This document shows positions 11,454-38,349 of a stretch of 38,349 bases of DNA, one piece after another. Where the stretch lies: positions 1 through 38,349 of the IMG/VR virus record IMGVR_UViG_3300006875_002433; one strand, written 5' to 3'. A model generated the notes under the pieces. That model worked only from the letters and a program-made list of their open reading frames with translations, ran no database searches and was not told the DNA's origin. Both the position numbers and the translations under genes were made by a program. Source of the stretch: a virus. Each line of letters opens with the position of its first letter. The first letter of the stretch is position 1.

Positions 11454-12893
11454 TCAGTCCTCTTCAAATGGTAAGTCTGAACCTTCTATGGCACCATCGT
11501 TGTTATTGCTAACTTTAAACTCATCTCTAGTTCTCAATTCTTTTAATGAAGATAATTCTCCAAACATTTTCATATTAATATAATTTCCATCTTCCATTCC
11601 AGGTCCATGTCTAGAAACAATGGGTACTAATTTTCTATTTCCAGCATTAGGCCCATCTTCCGCCAATTCTTCTGGAGACTTTATTTTAAAGATAGAAAAT
11701 GATGTACATAACCAAATCAATCTATCTGAACCACTAACGGCATCAGTGCTTTCTTTAGTAATACCATCGCGATTCAATTGAACAAACGATAGGCACGGGA
11801 AGTCATATTTAACGGCTAAGTTATGCAGCGAGGTGATCTGAAAACCTAAAGCTTGATACTCCTGGATATTATTAGTAATTGAACTAGAGGACATTAGTTT
11901 TAGATAATCATAAATTACCACACATTCGTTAGTTCTTCCGTTTTCATCTTGACCTACATTGTGGATTACCCACCTTTTAATAGTGTTCAAAATGCTTTCA
12001 AATGGCGCTCCAGCCACACTAACATATGTATAGGGTATGTTCTTTATTTTATCTATAGCAAGCCTTACTTTCAAAGTCTTTTCTTCATCTTCTGAGAATT
12101 TACCAGTAGATATTTCATTAATGGGCACACCACTAAGATTTGCCAATATTCTATTTAAATGATCCTCTTTTGACATTTCAGTATCTAACATCAATACTGG
12201 AACGCCAGATGAAGAAATATTTAAAGCTACATTATCAGCAAAAACACTTTTGCCAACCTTGGGTCTAGCTGACACAAGGTCTACACACTTTCTTCTAAGA
12301 CCGCCGCCAATAGCTGAGTCATATCTAGGAAAGCCAGTTGGTATACCTATTTGATCGCATTTATTTTCAAGCAAGAAATTGAAATAATCCTCAACATTGT
12401 CACCAATGTTTTGAGGCTTTTCTGATATATCATCTTCTCGTAGAAATCCAACTATGGGATTTTCTACCATGCCGATAATATCATCAATGCTCTCGTCACC
12501 ATTTATGGATTCGATATCTTTAGATATTTTTTCTGCTAATTTTTTAATCTTTCTTGCAAACTCAAACTTCTTAATTTGAGCTGCAAAATTGATTACATTA
12601 TTCTTTTTTATGGGAAACTGCATCAATGAATGAATATATTCTAATTCTTGCTTAGTATTTATTAATTCATAATGCCCCAGTTGTTGGGCTGCGGATAGAA
12701 TAGATGGTAAATCTACCTGAGACTCACTTTGTAGAATCTTCTCTATGCACTTATAAAGAATTTGATTATTATAATGACCAAAAGTTTGGTAATTAATAAT
12801 ATCAGATATTTCTACATACGCTTCAATTCCATATGTGAACAATCCAGCTAAGACTGCACGCTCTGCACCTACATCGGTGAGTTGTAAATTCAT
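11454..12893 (-). CDS. dnaB: Replicative DNA helicase, DnaB family
   Basis: The 479-aa protein has the DnaB layout. An N-terminal helical domain (about 5-130, with AERAVLAGLFTYG) is followed by a RecA-type motor with SARPKVGKSVFADNVALN (about 205-222, Walker A), VLMLDTEMSKEDHL (H1a Glu region), VVIYDYLKLM (Walker B) and SFVQLNRDG (motif H3 Gln). The C-terminus carries SRHGPGMEDG in place of the usual arginine-finger stretch and an acidic tail. It unwinds DNA ahead of the fork as a hexamer. Length is normal. No intein is present. It starts one base after the 134-aa zinc protein gene and precedes the primase group. Confidence 0.93.
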   Translation of the reverse strand: MNLQLTDVGAERAVLAGLFTYGIEAYVEISDIINYQTFGHYNNQILYKCIEKILQSESQVDLPSILSAAQQLGHYELINTKQELEYIHSLMQFPIKKNNVINFAAQIKKFEFARKIKKLAEKISKDIESINGDESIDDIIGMVENPIVGFLREDDISEKPQNIGDNVEDYFNFLLENKCDQIGIPTGFPRYDSAIGGGLRRKCVDLVSARPKVGKSVFADNVALNISSSGVPVLMLDTEMSKEDHLNRILANLSGVPINEISTGKFSEDEEKTLKVRLAIDKIKNIPYTYVSVAGAPFESILNTIKRWVIHNVGQDENGRTNECVVIYDYLKLMSSSSITNNIQEYQALGFQITSLHNLAVKYDFPCLSFVQLNRDGITKESTDAVSGSDRLIWLCTSFSIFKIKSPEELAEDGPNAGNRKLVPIVSRHGPGMEDGNYINMKMFGELSSLKELRTRDEFKVSNNNDGAIEGSDLPFEED

Positions 12894-13787: not shown

Positions 13788-14166
13788 AATTAAAAACTAT
13801 CAAATTTATATTATTTAGTTCACACCAGCTTTCTTTTACTGAGTCTCTTCTTTTTTGATCTAAAAATCCAGCTTTAGTTTTATGGAAAAATTGACAATAT
13901 TCATAATGTTGTCTTCCATGAACTTCTATACCTAGATTAAATGTTGGAACGAGAAAGTCAAGGAATAGGACGGATTTTTTACTGGGGCAGGTGGAACCTG
14001 GAAGTTTAACCTCTTCTAAAATCAAATATCCACAAAAGACATCCTTTAATAAATCCCTTGCCATTATGTGAAATGAAGATCTTTTTTTTCTAGTGTCATT
14101 ATTTTTAATTACATATTTTTTTGAATCAATAATATATACTTTATTATTTAATCCCTTTACTTTCAT
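13741..14166 (-). CDS. PD-(D/E)XK-type endonuclease-like protein
   Basis: The 141-aa protein shows LFLDFLVPTFNLGIEVHGRQ near residue 68, where the Asp and the Glu of EVHGRQH match a PD-(D/E)XK nuclease core of the VSR/DUF559 kind. QKRRDSVKESWCELNNINLI and FNYADD follow. Enzymes of this shape cut DNA, and in phages they serve repair or recombination. It lies directly after recA with an ATGA overlap and before the 163-aa protein, so a recombination role is likely. The family assignment rests on motif pattern only. Confidence 0.65.
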   Translation of the reverse strand: MKVKGLNNKVYIIDSKKYVIKNNDTRKKRSSFHIMARDLLKDVFCGYLILEEVKLPGSTCPSKKSVLFLDFLVPTFNLGIEVHGRQHYEYCQFFHKTKAGFLDQKRRDSVKESWCELNNINLIVFNYADDIQIWRKQLECI

Positions 14167-16313
14167 AGTATCTCTCTGATTTGATTATAAATATAATCTT
14201 TCAAATCTTCATTTTCGGTCAGGAAATCTGTAACTTTTTGTATGCCCTGAAATCTAAAAAACTTTTGAACGGCCTCATCATTATTCAGGTCTATATCATT
14301 TTTAATTAAAATGTTTTTAATGGCTGGATCATCTTTGTTGTCTATCGCAGTAGATATTTCGTACCACGCTCCGCTTTTCTTTATCATACTAAATTGACTA
14401 GCTAATTGAGCTATTTCTTGGGCTTCATCTATACCAACGCCATATCTAATCCATGACTCGGCTGTTGTCATGGGCTTTCCACCTGCGGCAGATGTCTTTA
14501 TTATCCAATTGGCAATTTGTCCAACGTGTGGGCCAGTAGACTTTTCATCTTCATTTACAGACGCCCCAGAAGCTAGCCATTTACCTCTATGTGTAATTAC
14601 CATATTGGTTCCAGCTTGATATTGCATCATATTTCCACAGTCAGCAATTTTTTGTGGCGCGAATCTTGATCCGCTTGTGTTAGCTATATTGTGGGTGATA
14701 AATATTAGAATAGCTTTATTTCTAGCTACATCACCACTTATTCTTTTAAAGAACATTGACAGTAGTCTTGGTAATGAATTTCTAACACCAGTTCTGATCT
14801 CACCGTCTAATTCTTCTTTGGGAACCATATTAGAAGCTGAATCAATTATAGCAACCAAGTCTGGGCTGCTTTTAACATAAATCTCAAGGGCATTCAAATA
14901 CGTTTCAGCGGAAACTAGTGGGCATTCATCGGTTGATTGTACTATTTTTATTTTTGACGGATCTAGTCCCTTGATACCAATAAAATTTTCTTTTGTTATT
15001 CTGCCTTCAGTATTGAAATAAATAACATTCTTGCCTAGAGCTTGTGCTTTTGCGGCAAAATATAAAGCAGTGGTAGTATTATGAGTAACATTAAAATTAT
15101 CAGTTAAATAAAGATGATCTGGATGATCAATAAAAATACATTGAGTTTCTTCTTTTCTGACAAGTTCAACTTTTACTATAGTTTTAAATAGTTCTGGTTT
15201 TATTCGTTTTGTTAAAAACTTTTTACGATTAATTTTAAATAATTGATTAATATCATCTCCAGAGATATACAATCTAAAAGATTTAAACTCTTTTCCGTTG
15301 CATTTTGTCATTCTTTCTTTTATTTTAACCATATAACCAAGTGATCGTAATAATTCTGAAACATGAATACTTAAAGCATAAGACGCAGTGCTATATTCTG
15401 CTGATTTACCATTGTCATTATAACCATCAGTATCCATTAAGCCACGAACTAATTCAAATCTATCATTTATAGATGAATAAAGATAATCTTGTGGAATAAA
15501 TTTTGAATGTGATTTTTTACCCATAAGATTTAATGTTCTTAATTTATTAGTTAAATTATTTATATTTTTTCCATATCCAACTATAGAATAGTCATATTTA
15601 GATTTATGATGAATTTCCAGATCATTATCTTTAGCGTAATTTTTAAAAGCTTCTAAAATTTCATCATCTGCTGTAGTAATAATAGGAGTTCCTTGTGATA
15701 GTCCTCCATCTCCGATTAAACATCCTAGTATATATGGATCTATTTCAAGATTTTTACAGTCAAAATAAACCGGTTTACAAATAGGAATCTTCCATTTTGG
15801 TCTATCGCTATAGAATAAACCCTCTTCTATTATTTGTCTTAAAGGTAAGACTACCCACTCGTCATTTCTTCCATGATAATTTTTACAAACTTTCCATAAA
15901 TGATCTATACCACATTCTGCAAATGTGCCATCGTTAAAAGATATTCTATAAACATCTTTTATACCTTGAGGGTAAATTCCATTTATTCTTGCGGTTTCTC
16001 CGCCATTTGGAGTACAAACTATATCTCCAATTTTTAATGAGCCCATTTTTCTTGGCCCATCTGGAGTATAGACGATTGCTGATAAAGGTTGATCTTTTCC
16101 AGTCTTTGGATCGCCAGTCATTACTACGCAACTTCCCTCTCTTAGCCCACCACCAAGGGCTATATCTAAAGATGGAGATATTCCTATCTTTTTTAATTCT
16201 TGAAGATCTTCTAAGACCTTCTCTCCACTCTCTACGATATTTCCAAATTTAGAATTAATTTGATTGCTAATAACATCATCTTCAAATACTTTACTCTTCA
16301 GTTTCTTCGCCAT
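14163..16313 (-). CDS. recA: RecA/UvsX recombinase interrupted by an intein
   Basis: The 716-aa reading frame encodes a RecA-family recombinase of about 377 aa with a 339-aa intein inside. The recombinase N-terminus reads ISPSLDIALGGGL, and the Walker A P-loop is split: GDPKTGK (residues 67-73) is followed by the intein and then TTTALYFAAK (from 413). Walker B is LVAIIDSA, and LLSMFFKRISGDVARNKAIL and FITHN follow in the usual order. The protein promotes strand exchange in phage recombination-dependent replication. ATP binding cannot occur until the intein leaves, because the insertion breaks the GK-T motif. It is followed by the nuclease-like gene with an ATGA overlap. Confidence 0.93.
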   Translation of the reverse strand: MAKKLKSKVFEDDVISNQINSKFGNIVESGEKVLEDLQELKKIGISPSLDIALGGGLREGSCVVMTGDPKTGKDQPLSAIVYTPDGPRKMGSLKIGDIVCTPNGGETARINGIYPQGIKDVYRISFNDGTFAECGIDHLWKVCKNYHGRNDEWVVLPLRQIIEEGLFYSDRPKWKIPICKPVYFDCKNLEIDPYILGCLIGDGGLSQGTPIITTADDEILEAFKNYAKDNDLEIHHKSKYDYSIVGYGKNINNLTNKLRTLNLMGKKSHSKFIPQDYLYSSINDRFELVRGLMDTDGYNDNGKSAEYSTASYALSIHVSELLRSLGYMVKIKERMTKCNGKEFKSFRLYISGDDINQLFKINRKKFLTKRIKPELFKTIVKVELVRKEETQCIFIDHPDHLYLTDNFNVTHNTTTALYFAAKAQALGKNVIYFNTEGRITKENFIGIKGLDPSKIKIVQSTDECPLVSAETYLNALEIYVKSSPDLVAIIDSASNMVPKEELDGEIRTGVRNSLPRLLSMFFKRISGDVARNKAILIFITHNIANTSGSRFAPQKIADCGNMMQYQAGTNMVITHRGKWLASGASVNEDEKSTGPHVGQIANWIIKTSAAGGKPMTTAESWIRYGVGIDEAQEIAQLASQFSMIKKSGAWYEISTAIDNKDDPAIKNILIKNDIDLNNDEAVQKFFRFQGIQKVTDFLTENEDLKDYIYNQIREIL
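15078..16094 (-). mobile_element. Class 3-type intein with LAGLIDADG endonuclease in recA
   Basis: The intein occupies residues 74-412 of the recA frame. It starts Asp-Gln-Pro-Leu (DQPLSAIVYTPDG), so it lacks the usual Cys or Ser at position 1. It has the class 3 signature: Trp140 at the end of block B (GIDHLW), Cys392 in block F (QCIFIDHPDH) and Thr410 in block G (NFNVTHN), followed by extein Thr413. Class 3 inteins use the block F Cys as first nucleophile. Two LAGLIDADG motifs are present, ILGCLIGDGG (about 195-204) and LVRGLMDTDG (about 288-297), so an active homing endonuclease is likely. Confidence 0.88.
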
Positions 16314-17743: not shown

Positions 17744-18099
17744 TATTTCTTGCCTTTCATTATATAGTCTTTCTTTTGTTTCTTTGTCATTTTATTTATT
17801 TCCTGCGGGCTCGCCCCTCCAGCATTATGATACCAGGGGGTTTGCTTTTTAGGTTTCTGCGCCTCTATTTCCTGTATCTTACTTTTATTTTCTTTTGAGT
17901 TCTTATCTGCTAGCTGACCTATAGTTTTAACATCTCGAACAGACGAGTAAATATTATCTCTTACATAATCTCTGTATACATTTCTAGAAGTACAGTTTGG
18001 ACATACAATATTTTTCATACGGTTATCGTAATCAGATATTCTACATTCTATTTCTATTTCTTGCAAGCAATCATGGCAATACAAATTATAAGTTGGCAT
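17743..18099 (-). CDS. FmdB-type zinc ribbon protein
   Basis: The 118-aa protein starts MPTYNLYCHDCLQEIEIECR with CPNCTSRNVYRDYV about 25 residues later, giving two CxxC pairs of a zinc ribbon like FmdB-type regulatory proteins. The C-terminal half is basic and Lys-rich (NKMTKKQKKDYIMKG), likely unstructured or nucleic-acid binding. I chose the ATG at 18099 because family members begin MPTY. Three in-frame codons upstream overlap phoH more. It lies just after phoH, a common phage order. Confidence 0.7.
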   Translation of the reverse strand: MPTYNLYCHDCLQEIEIECRISDYDNRMKNIVCPNCTSRNVYRDYVRDNIYSSVRDVKTIGQLADKNSKENKSKIQEIEAQKPKKQTPWYHNAGGASPQEINKMTKKQKKDYIMKGKK

Positions 18100-18772
18100 A
18101 ATCATCACTCTCCAAAGCGTTTAATATCTTTCCTATCATTCCGTGTCTTTGAATATCAGAGTTATCTAAATTTACAATAGATATCCCCTCAATATTTTTA
18201 AGCTTATTCATACAAGACCATAGGCCGCTCTTTCCCTTTAGGTCAGTTTGTCTTGTGTCGCCATTAATTAAAACTTTAGAATTTTGGCCCATTCTAGTTA
18301 TGAACATTTTTATTTGATCAAATGTACAATTTTGAGCTTCATCCAAAATCATATAAGCGTTATTAAACGTGGCGCCACGCATTATTTCTATAGGCTCATA
18401 CCTTATCTTTTTTTCATTTGCATATAAACCATAAAAAGCTTGCCCAAGAAAGAATCTAAAATTTTCTTGCATTGGCATTAAGTATGGATTTATTTTTTCA
18501 GATAGATCTCCAGGTAGTGCGCCTATTTCTTTACCGGTACAAATGATTGGCCTTGTTACTATTATCTGCTCAATATCGCCCCTGTGTAAATGTTCGGCGG
18601 CTATACCAGCCGCAATAAACGATTTTCCACATCCCGAAGGACCAGAACAAAAAATAACTTCATTCTCAATAATTGATCTTATATATTCCTTTTGATTATT
18701 TGTTTTACCTTCTACAATTTTAATTTTTTGATTTGAATGTTGTTCTTGTTGTTTTTCTTTTCGTCTGGTCAT
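18086..18772 (-). CDS. phoH: PhoH-like ATPase
   Basis: The 228-aa protein has the PhoH P-loop FCSGPSGCGKSFIAAGIA (about residues 40-57), the family segment QIIVTRPIICTGKEIGALPG, Walker B-like YMILDEAQNCTFDQIKMFIT and a sensor LINGDTRQTDL. PhoH proteins are ATPases, probably RNA-related helicases, common in phages and often in phosphate-response contexts. No Pho box is visible here. Length is normal for the single-domain phage form. It overlaps the FmdB-like gene by 14 bases and follows dUTPase by 26. Confidence 0.93.
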   Translation of the reverse strand: MTRRKEKQQEQHSNQKIKIVEGKTNNQKEYIRSIIENEVIFCSGPSGCGKSFIAAGIAAEHLHRGDIEQIIVTRPIICTGKEIGALPGDLSEKINPYLMPMQENFRFFLGQAFYGLYANEKKIRYEPIEIMRGATFNNAYMILDEAQNCTFDQIKMFITRMGQNSKVLINGDTRQTDLKGKSGLWSCMNKLKNIEGISIVNLDNSDIQRHGMIGKILNALESDDYANL

Positions 18773-34696: not shown

Positions 34697-34739
34697 CTTT
34701 TATCCTTTCCCATCTGTTGCCAAAAATAATTATTATAAT

Positions 34740-34812
34740 AGGGCTAGTAGGACTCGAACCTACAATCGACAGATTAGAAATCTGTAGCTCTTTCCAATTA
34801 AGCTATAGCCCC
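34740..34812 (-). tRNA. tRNA-Arg (anticodon TCT)
   Basis: A 73-nt cloverleaf has acceptor GGGGCTA/TAGCCCT (one G-T), D arm GCTT/GAGC, anticodon arm ACAGA-TTTCTAA-TCTGT (TCT, reading AGA), and T arm GTAGG-TTCGAGT-CCTAC. No CCA is encoded. It begins three bases after the tmRNA coding piece, so they are probably cut from one transcript. Confidence 0.93.
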
Positions 34813-34814
34813 AT

Positions 34815-35089
34815 ATGCCAGTTTGGGCGATAGGGTACTGGCAAACCCCAGACAGCTTACGCTGCCAATGCGAGAACTTCGTCTGCACTTACAATTTAAT
34901 CGAGTTTTTAAGTGGCCTCTCGATCAACCACTACATGCAGTTACTACTTACGCAAGCAATCGAAACTTTTCAGGCCCGTCAGGAATATACTTGGTTAAGT
35001 ATACTTTTGGTGGACCTGCCGATCATTGCAAATCGGGTCTTGCTCTGTTTCAATAATAACATCTACATGTTTATCTGGCAATGCCAGAG
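34815..35089 (-). ncRNA. ssrA: Circularly permuted two-piece tmRNA
   Basis: The gene has the acceptor piece first (about 35089-35008) and the coding piece second (34977 to about 34815), with a 30-base spacer (34978-35007). The acceptor piece ends CAGGTCC-A-CCA and pairs with GGGCCTG at the start of the coding piece, seven pairs including G3-U70, the alanine identity element. A T arm, CCGAT/ATCGG with an 8-base loop, precedes the acceptor. After GGGCCTG comes AAAAGTTTCGATTG, like the tmRNA GATTCGAC region. Pseudoknot PK1 (AGTGG/CCACT with ATCGAG/CTCGAT) precedes the tag. The tag stop sits in a GGCAGC-GTAA-GCTGTC hairpin (P5). P2 can form from TTGCT and AGCAA. It rescues stalled ribosomes with SmpB, which is not in the window. 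Confidence 0.9.
34857..34886 (-). other. tmRNA tag reading frame (ADEVLALAA)
   Basis: Within the tmRNA coding piece, GCA-GAC-GAA-GTT-CTC-GCA-TTG-GCA-GCG-TAA encodes ADEVLALAA and stop, with TAAGT before the resume codon (compare TAGTC in E. coli). The ending LAA is the ClpXP-type degradation signal. With the alanine from charged tmRNA, the tag would be A-ADEVLALAA. The stop codon lies in the P5 hairpin loop. Confidence 0.9.
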
Positions 35090-37578: not shown

Positions 37579-38349
37579 TCAAATTAAAATATCTTTTATA
37601 ACTTTACCGTTATCCACTATCTCAACGGGCCTTTCTCCAGGCGCCATTAACTCTTTATCCGCCACAATACCTAATAGGTGGTACATTGTATACGCAAAAT
37701 CTTCCGGTGATACTGGGTTATTTTCCGGCTCTGATGCGGTAGAATCCGTAGCCCCATAGATTAATCCACGTTTCACACCGCCACCGGCCAGTAGCGTGCT
37801 AAACGCTTTGGGCCAATGATCACGCCCTGCGTCTGCGTTGATTTTGGGCGTTCTCCCAAATTCACTACTTACCATGATTAGAGTCGTGTCTAATAAGCCG
37901 CGCTCATCTAGATCGCTAATAAGGGCCGTTAAAGCCTTATCTAGAGGTGGAGCTTGAGTTTTCATCGCACCATTGATCCCTTGGTGCATATCCCAGCCGC
38001 CATAAGTTAAAGTTACCATTCTAACGCCAGCCTCAACTAATCTCCTAGCCATTAACATTCTTTGACCGGCTTGATTTTTACCATATCGTTCTTTAATTTT
38101 TTCATCTTCTGCTTTTAAATTAAATGCTTCCCTAGCTTTTGGCGAAGTAATTAAACTAAAAGCCTGATCATAAAAACTATTCATAGCTTTCATTTTATCA
38201 GCATGGGGATTTTTATAAAAGAAATCTTGATTGACTATAGCTAGGGCGGACTTCCTTCTTTCAAATCTATCTAGATCAATACCTTCTGGCAGAGACAGGT
38301 CTTGCACCTGGAAATTCTCATTTGCAGGGTCTGAACCAAGACTGAACGG
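37579..38349 (-). CDS. DUF1501-type protein, 5' end outside the window
   Basis: The open frame runs to the right edge (256 residues visible). It begins PFSLGSDPANENFQ then VQDLSLPEGIDLDRFERRK and contains AGVRMVTLTYGGWDMHQGIN, LDERGLLDTTLIMVSSEFGR and a TPKINADAGRDHWPKAFSTL region, ending in VEIVDNGKVIKDILI. This matches the C-terminal part of DUF1501 proteins, which are abundant in Planctomycetota and related to alkaline-phosphatase-like or sulfatase folds. The N-terminal part, usually with a twin-arginine signal, is missing. It is nine bases from a phage gene, on the same strand. Confidence 0.87.
   Translation of the reverse strand, partial: PFSLGSDPANENFQVQDLSLPEGIDLDRFERRKSALAIVNQDFFYKNPHADKMKAMNSFYDQAFSLITSPKAREAFNLKAEDEKIKERYGKNQAGQRMLMARRLVEAGVRMVTLTYGGWDMHQGINGAMKTQAPPLDKALTALISDLDERGLLDTTLIMVSSEFGRTPKINADAGRDHWPKAFSTLLAGGGVKRGLIYGATDSTASEPENNPVSPEDFAYTMYHLLGIVADKELMAPGERPVEIVDNGKVIKDILI

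Follow-up and report, generated by a model that had tools for sequence, protein, structure and literature searches.

A predicted mobile class 3 intein bearing a LAGLIDADG homing endonuclease at the Walker A site of a phage recA/uvsX-like gene

The locus examined in this study raises the question of what interrupts the P-loop of a phage recombinase, and whether the insert is a mobile intein, a decaying one, or a switch that controls the protein. The window, i.e., the whole stretch of viral DNA analyzed (38,349 nucleotides; IMG/VR record IMGVR_UViG_3300006875_002433), contains a recA/uvsX-like gene whose reading frame runs through the insert. The best explanation, which can be given with high confidence, is a mobile class 3 intein of full length that carries a LAGLIDADG homing endonuclease, lies between the Walker A Lys and Thr of a phage RecA/UvsX-like protein and is predicted to splice and to home. 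The features of the locus are as follows:

14163..16313, minus strand: recA/uvsX-like gene, 716-residue precursor (N-extein, intein and C-extein), open reading frame without internal stop
16095..16313, minus strand: N-extein, 73 residues, its C-terminal end being the Walker A sequence GDPKTGK
15078..16094, minus strand: probable class 3 intein, 339 residues, Asp1 to Asn339 (precursor residues 74-412)
15894..15896, minus strand: Trp67 of the intein (block B:12)
15189..15761, minus strand: LAGLIDADG homing endonuclease domain, intein residues ~112-302
15138..15140, minus strand: Cys319 (block F:4), predicted initiating nucleophile
15078..15086, minus strand: block G, Thr337-His338-Asn339
15075..15077, minus strand: Thr413, the C-extein +1 residue and P-loop Thr, predicted second nucleophile
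14163..15077, minus strand: C-extein, remaining RecA ATPase core and C-terminal domain, 304 residues plus stop

With the insert removed, the host protein has a RecA ATPase core and a Walker A motif, as indicated by PF00154 (precursor residues 412-581, plus a RecA_C match), the UvsX-like PHROG 97 (residues 413-576), and the uninterrupted alleles described below. Since the match to TIGR02012 (75.9 bits) is well below the cut-off for true cellular RecA and the PHROG match is UvsX-like, "phage RecA/UvsX-like" is a more exact name than "RecA". The P-loops of PhoH (18086-18772) and DnaB (11454-12893) in the same window are intein-free. Elsewhere in the window, Rfam identifies a permuted (two-piece) tmRNA at 34857-35070 on the minus strand (RF04321, 68 bits, cut-off 47), which adjoins a tRNA-Arg at 34738-34813; ARAGORN makes no tmRNA call at 34857-35070. 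At the end of the record (37579-38307, minus strand) lies the coding sequence for the C-terminal portion of a DUF1501 protein (E 2e-81), a family that is cellular rather than phage-like, and this fragment is possibly a host gene, cargo, or a chimeric contig end.

Both intein borders are fixed exactly, as proved by empty-site relatives. The N-junction reads TGDPKTGK/DQPLSA and the C-junction FNVTHN/TTTALY, placing the insertion between GDPKTGK and TTTALYF, while natural empty-site alleles carry an uninterrupted GD(P/A)KTGKTTTALYF. The nearest of these (L051), which is 78% identical over the C-extein and the sister of the window sequence on the extein tree (support 98), reads GDAKTGKTTTALYF, where the window has GDPKTGK-(339 residues)-TTTALYF. 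The preliminary description, made from the window sequence, had placed the intein at 15078-16094, between GK and T of the P-loop, and had named Trp140, Cys392, Thr410 and Asn412 of the precursor as its key residues; the empty-site alleles confirm the insertion point, and the borders and residues proved exact, the latter being Trp67, Cys319, Thr337 and Asn339 in intein numbering. Viral contigs were also searched with the C-extein alone, a query that favors neither intein state, yielding 90 loci. An uninterrupted Walker A motif was found in 83 of these by script and in two more (L061 and L138) by reading the printed sequence, so the intein is absent from 85 of the 90 nearest RecA loci, a ratio valid for near relatives only because the C-extein profile search covers the best 80 of more than 590 relatives. 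An intein is present at three of the 90 loci, namely a duplicate of the window sequence itself, the contig of L004, and L112; of the remaining two, one is truncated and one unreadable.

The residues of the insert are those of a class 3 intein. Position 1 is Asp rather than Cys, Ser or Thr, so the Cys1 or Ser1 of class 1 is lacking, and the class 3 set is present as Trp67, Cys319 and Thr337, together with His65 (two codons upstream of Trp67), His338, Asn339 and Thr+1. An alignment of 23 viral-contig inteins shows Cys319, Thr337, His338 and Asn339 to be invariant and Trp67 to be present in 22, with Asp, Glu, Leu, Ala or Met at position 1; a motif set this constant is not due to chance. In a larger set of 46 inteins, comprising those of viral contigs plus those of named phages, plasmids and bacterial genomes, Cys occupies F:4 in all 38 inteins without Cys1 and in none of the eight with Cys1, which have Asp or Gly there. 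Class was assigned by residue 1 alone; therefore, the link between Cys1 and F:4 is not built into the comparison. The class 3 residue set is nevertheless not absolute, since two relatives deviate from it: L031 has Phe in place of the Trp, and a RecA P-loop intein (L112:1720-3951) has Ser1 and Ala-His-Asn but keeps the Trp and the block F Cys, and is a natural variant of the set at the same RecA site.

The splicing-domain tree was built from 104 columns, with the diagnostic positions 1, 67, 319 and 337 removed. The window intein falls inside the class 3 set, in a clade of 15 rows that are all RecA-site inteins (97/94), and a forced grouping with class 1, the outcome that the preliminary description had named as counting against its assignment, is rejected (p-AU 0.0019). 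Class 3 is not strictly recovered as one clade, since the unconstrained tree places L238 with class 1; monophyly of class 1 versus class 3 in the strict sense is neither recovered nor rejected (p-AU 0.36), and the backbone of the 104-column tree has modest support. It is extremely improbable that the insert is instead a class 1 or class 2 intein in which the F:4 Cys is incidental and splicing starts by another first step (in class 2, direct attack by the +1 residue): a residue 1 other than Cys, Ser or Thr is shared with class 2 and some Cys1 inteins likewise have THN as block G, but class 2 inteins belong to KlbA orthologues and combine Ala1 with Ser at G:6, Asp at F:4 and Cys+1 (PMC4031507), whereas the window has a RecA host, Asp1, His338, Thr+1 and Cys319, the F:4 Cys tracks the absence of Cys1 in 46 of 46 sequences, and class 1 and class 2 identities are rejected on the residue pattern together with the tree test. 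A possible split class 1 intein was observed elsewhere, at L224:1762-2691 and at L227 (on the record of L020), where a C-terminal half with its own frame start precedes a DNA ligase-like C-extein in one fusion and an N-terminal match lies ~1 kb upstream; the 223 kb phage contig also carries the RecA intein.

The structural model agrees with the class 3 reading. An AlphaFold2 model of the intein, built from the 23-row alignment, has a mean pLDDT of 93.9 and matches PI-SceI over its whole length (residues 1-339; Z 28.2 over 319 residues). The closest intein without an endonuclease domain is the class 3 Msm DnaB intein (6bs8; Z 19.4, rmsd 1.7, 123 aligned residues), followed by MchDnaB-1 (Z 18.7), and the M. 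tuberculosis RecA intein is a weaker match (Z 15.9). Because matches within 1 Z were treated as tied, the structure supports the class 3 placement without deciding it. The preliminary assignment to class 3 thus draws support from sequence, structure and phylogeny, and alignment to class 3 inteins bears it out in that the F:4 Cys and the Trp/Thr set are shared by the window intein and its relatives.

The endonuclease domain was originally described as apparently complete, and the data agree. Its LAGLIDADG motifs are LGCLIGDGG at intein residue 123 and LVRGLMDTDGY at 215, the acidic residues Asp129 and Asp221/Asp223 are retained, Pfam LAGLIDADG_3 matches precursor residues 286-356, and the full modeled fold is that of a pseudo-dimer, as seen from the PI-SceI match (Z 28.2) and the Pfam match. 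Comparison with L003, L004 and L008 gives dN of ~0.07-0.09 versus dS of 0.6-1.4 in both domains; the LAGLIDADG and splicing domains are under purifying selection. Decay behind an open frame, with splicing or the endonuclease already dead, is a rival reading of the insert, and decay has taken place in this group. A sister group at the RecA site (L033-L043, L045 and L049; ~310 residues) has a recognizable LAGLIDADG domain that has lost its acidic residues (IGDG changed to LGAG, MDTDG to LKVAG) and keeps its splicing residues, as is usual late in the homing cycle; in addition, L014:850-2962, whose recA gene is near-identical to that of L004 in other respects, has a frameshift within its intein, and may be either a pseudogene or an assembly error. 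For the window copy, however, decay is very unlikely, and it was rejected on the basis of intact motifs and purifying selection: all catalytic residues, both acidic motifs and the frame are intact, dN/dS is low in both domains, and a second contig carries a 100% identical copy.

The intein is mobile and has been transferred between divergent recA genes. Between L008 and the window, the inteins are 85.5% identical in amino acids and 66.6% at third codon positions, compared to 43.1% and 33.1%, respectively, for the C-exteins. Overall, L003, L004 and L008 share 84-86% identity with the window in the intein but 66, 65 and 43%, respectively, in the C-extein, and third-position identities to the same three are 67-70% in the intein and 33-49% in the C-exteins. 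Intein similarity thus greatly exceeds C-extein similarity, which argues that the intein moved between recA genes, as homing predicts, and the extein tree forces at least five changes of intein state. At least 33 viral contigs besides the window carry an intein at the RecA site, with 21 distinct intein-bearing RecA sequences. No counterpart was found in cultured phages, as 80% coverage of the precursor is reached by no protein of the phage collection; the RecA-like proteins there are ~25% identical and, among the matches listed, are single-piece matches. Plasmids likewise hold no counterpart of the precursor, and none of 80 genome-contig loci holds a RecA matching the C-extein profile, i.e., a cellular RecA host.

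All residues needed for class 3 splicing are present in the precursor. In the published class 3 mechanism, the F:4 Cys, aided by His65 and the Thr at G:5, makes the first attack, at the N-junction, the N-extein is then transferred to the +1 Ser or Thr, and the Asn cyclizes (PMC5222942, PMC7664689, PMC6195587). Following this mechanism and the window sequence, Cys319 would attack the Lys73-Asp74 peptide bond to give a block F branched thioester, the N-extein would be transferred to Thr413, and cyclization of Asn339 would release the intein, leaving a ligated RecA with GDPKTGKTTT in which ATP binding would be restored. The P-loop Ser of MsmDnaBi1 acts as the +1 residue in splicing and also coordinates Mg (PMC6195587), and Thr413 would serve in both roles. 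Because the P-loop Thr is the +1 splicing nucleophile, it can soundly be inferred that RecA is disabled, and the precursor without ATPase activity, until splicing occurs. The endonuclease, in turn, is predicted to cut the empty P-loop codons of an intein-less recA during co-infection, and recombination would then copy the intein into the cut allele.

Class 3 inteins are themselves well known, with a 2020 census listing 1,701, of which 82.5% had LAGLIDADG motifs (PMC7891396). The window intein resembles the Msm and Mle DnaB class 3 mini-inteins in its Trp/Cys/Thr set and the absence of a position 1 nucleophile (PMC5222942, PMC6195587), as well as in its insertion between GK and the P-loop Ser or Thr and its +1 hydroxyl nucleophile; unlike them, it has a RecA rather than a DnaB host and is not a mini-intein lacking an endonuclease. 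Block B residue 62 is Asp in M. smegmatis DnaBi1 (PMC6195587) and Thr in class 1 inteins but Gly here, as is usual across the relatives. The P-loop Lys/Thr position has been termed "classic" and is also used in a phage protein by the TerL1-a mycobacteriophage inteins (PMC5050341), which differ in their terminase host and lie on a distant tree branch. The preliminary description held that class 3 inteins occur mostly in DnaB, other helicases and terminases; SF2 helicases and TerL are indeed among the hosts (the TerL intein of Minerva groups within the class 3 set), but the range is wider, including PhoH, an RNA ligase gene and an RNA polymerase beta gene. At three loci (L046, L047 and L230) a class 3 intein interrupts the P-loop of a phage PhoH, and in a Pseudomonas phage (L239; PQ287644.1) class 3-type C-terminal blocks (Cys, THN) lie in the RNA polymerase beta subunit gene, which is annotated as broken pieces. 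Mycobacterial RecA inteins (M. tuberculosis, M. leprae) have the RecA host in common with the window intein, with insertion sites elsewhere in RecA. The M. tuberculosis intein also differs in having block F Asp422, a class 1 arrangement (PMC6195587). No inteins in UvsX or phage RecA, and no class 3 intein in RecA/UvsX, were found in the literature searched, which excluded the main 2011 class 3 census (Tori and Perler); therefore, this is a known kind of intein at a RecA host site that is new for class 3 in that literature and may have been cataloged earlier.

The nearest functional parallel is the RadA intein of P. horikoshii and T. sibiricus, which also occupies the P-loop of a RecA-family recombinase (PMC5790916); it differs in being archaeal, with Cys1 (not class 3) and no endonuclease, and has been shown to be gated by ssDNA and heat (PMC5790916). 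The window intein could likewise be a switch as well as a parasite, its splicing within native exteins gated by ssDNA or by oxidation of Cys319, so that recombinase would be formed on demand. The P. horikoshii RadA intein is activated by ssDNA (PMC5790916), oxidation of the catalytic Cys pauses splicing of the class 3 Msm DnaBi1 in the DnaB P-loop (PMC6195587), Cys27 and Cys61 are conserved among RecA-site inteins, and some lineages have lost the endonuclease while retaining the splicing residues. However, most close RecA relatives are intein-free, and sporadic distribution with transfer fits a parasite, making such a role unlikely; were it real, ssDNA or the reducing state would gate production of phage RecA through the intein, an independent class 3 counterpart of the archaeal RadA switch.

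As a mobile class 3 intein, the element extends the host range of its class to a phage RecA-family recombinase, and it represents one lineage that has spread at a single site through recA genes of many uncultured phages, with identities down to 43%, and with the P-loop Thr put to dual use in splicing and ATP binding. Homing in T4-type phages depends on a recombinase (PMC2988022), so the intein interrupts the kind of protein needed for its own spread, and the gap must be covered by fast splicing, host RecA or a resident uninterrupted recombinase. The intact, decayed and empty alleles form a good natural series for the homing cycle, and the main value of the finding lies in this rich natural allele set together with a testable counterpart to the RadA switch.
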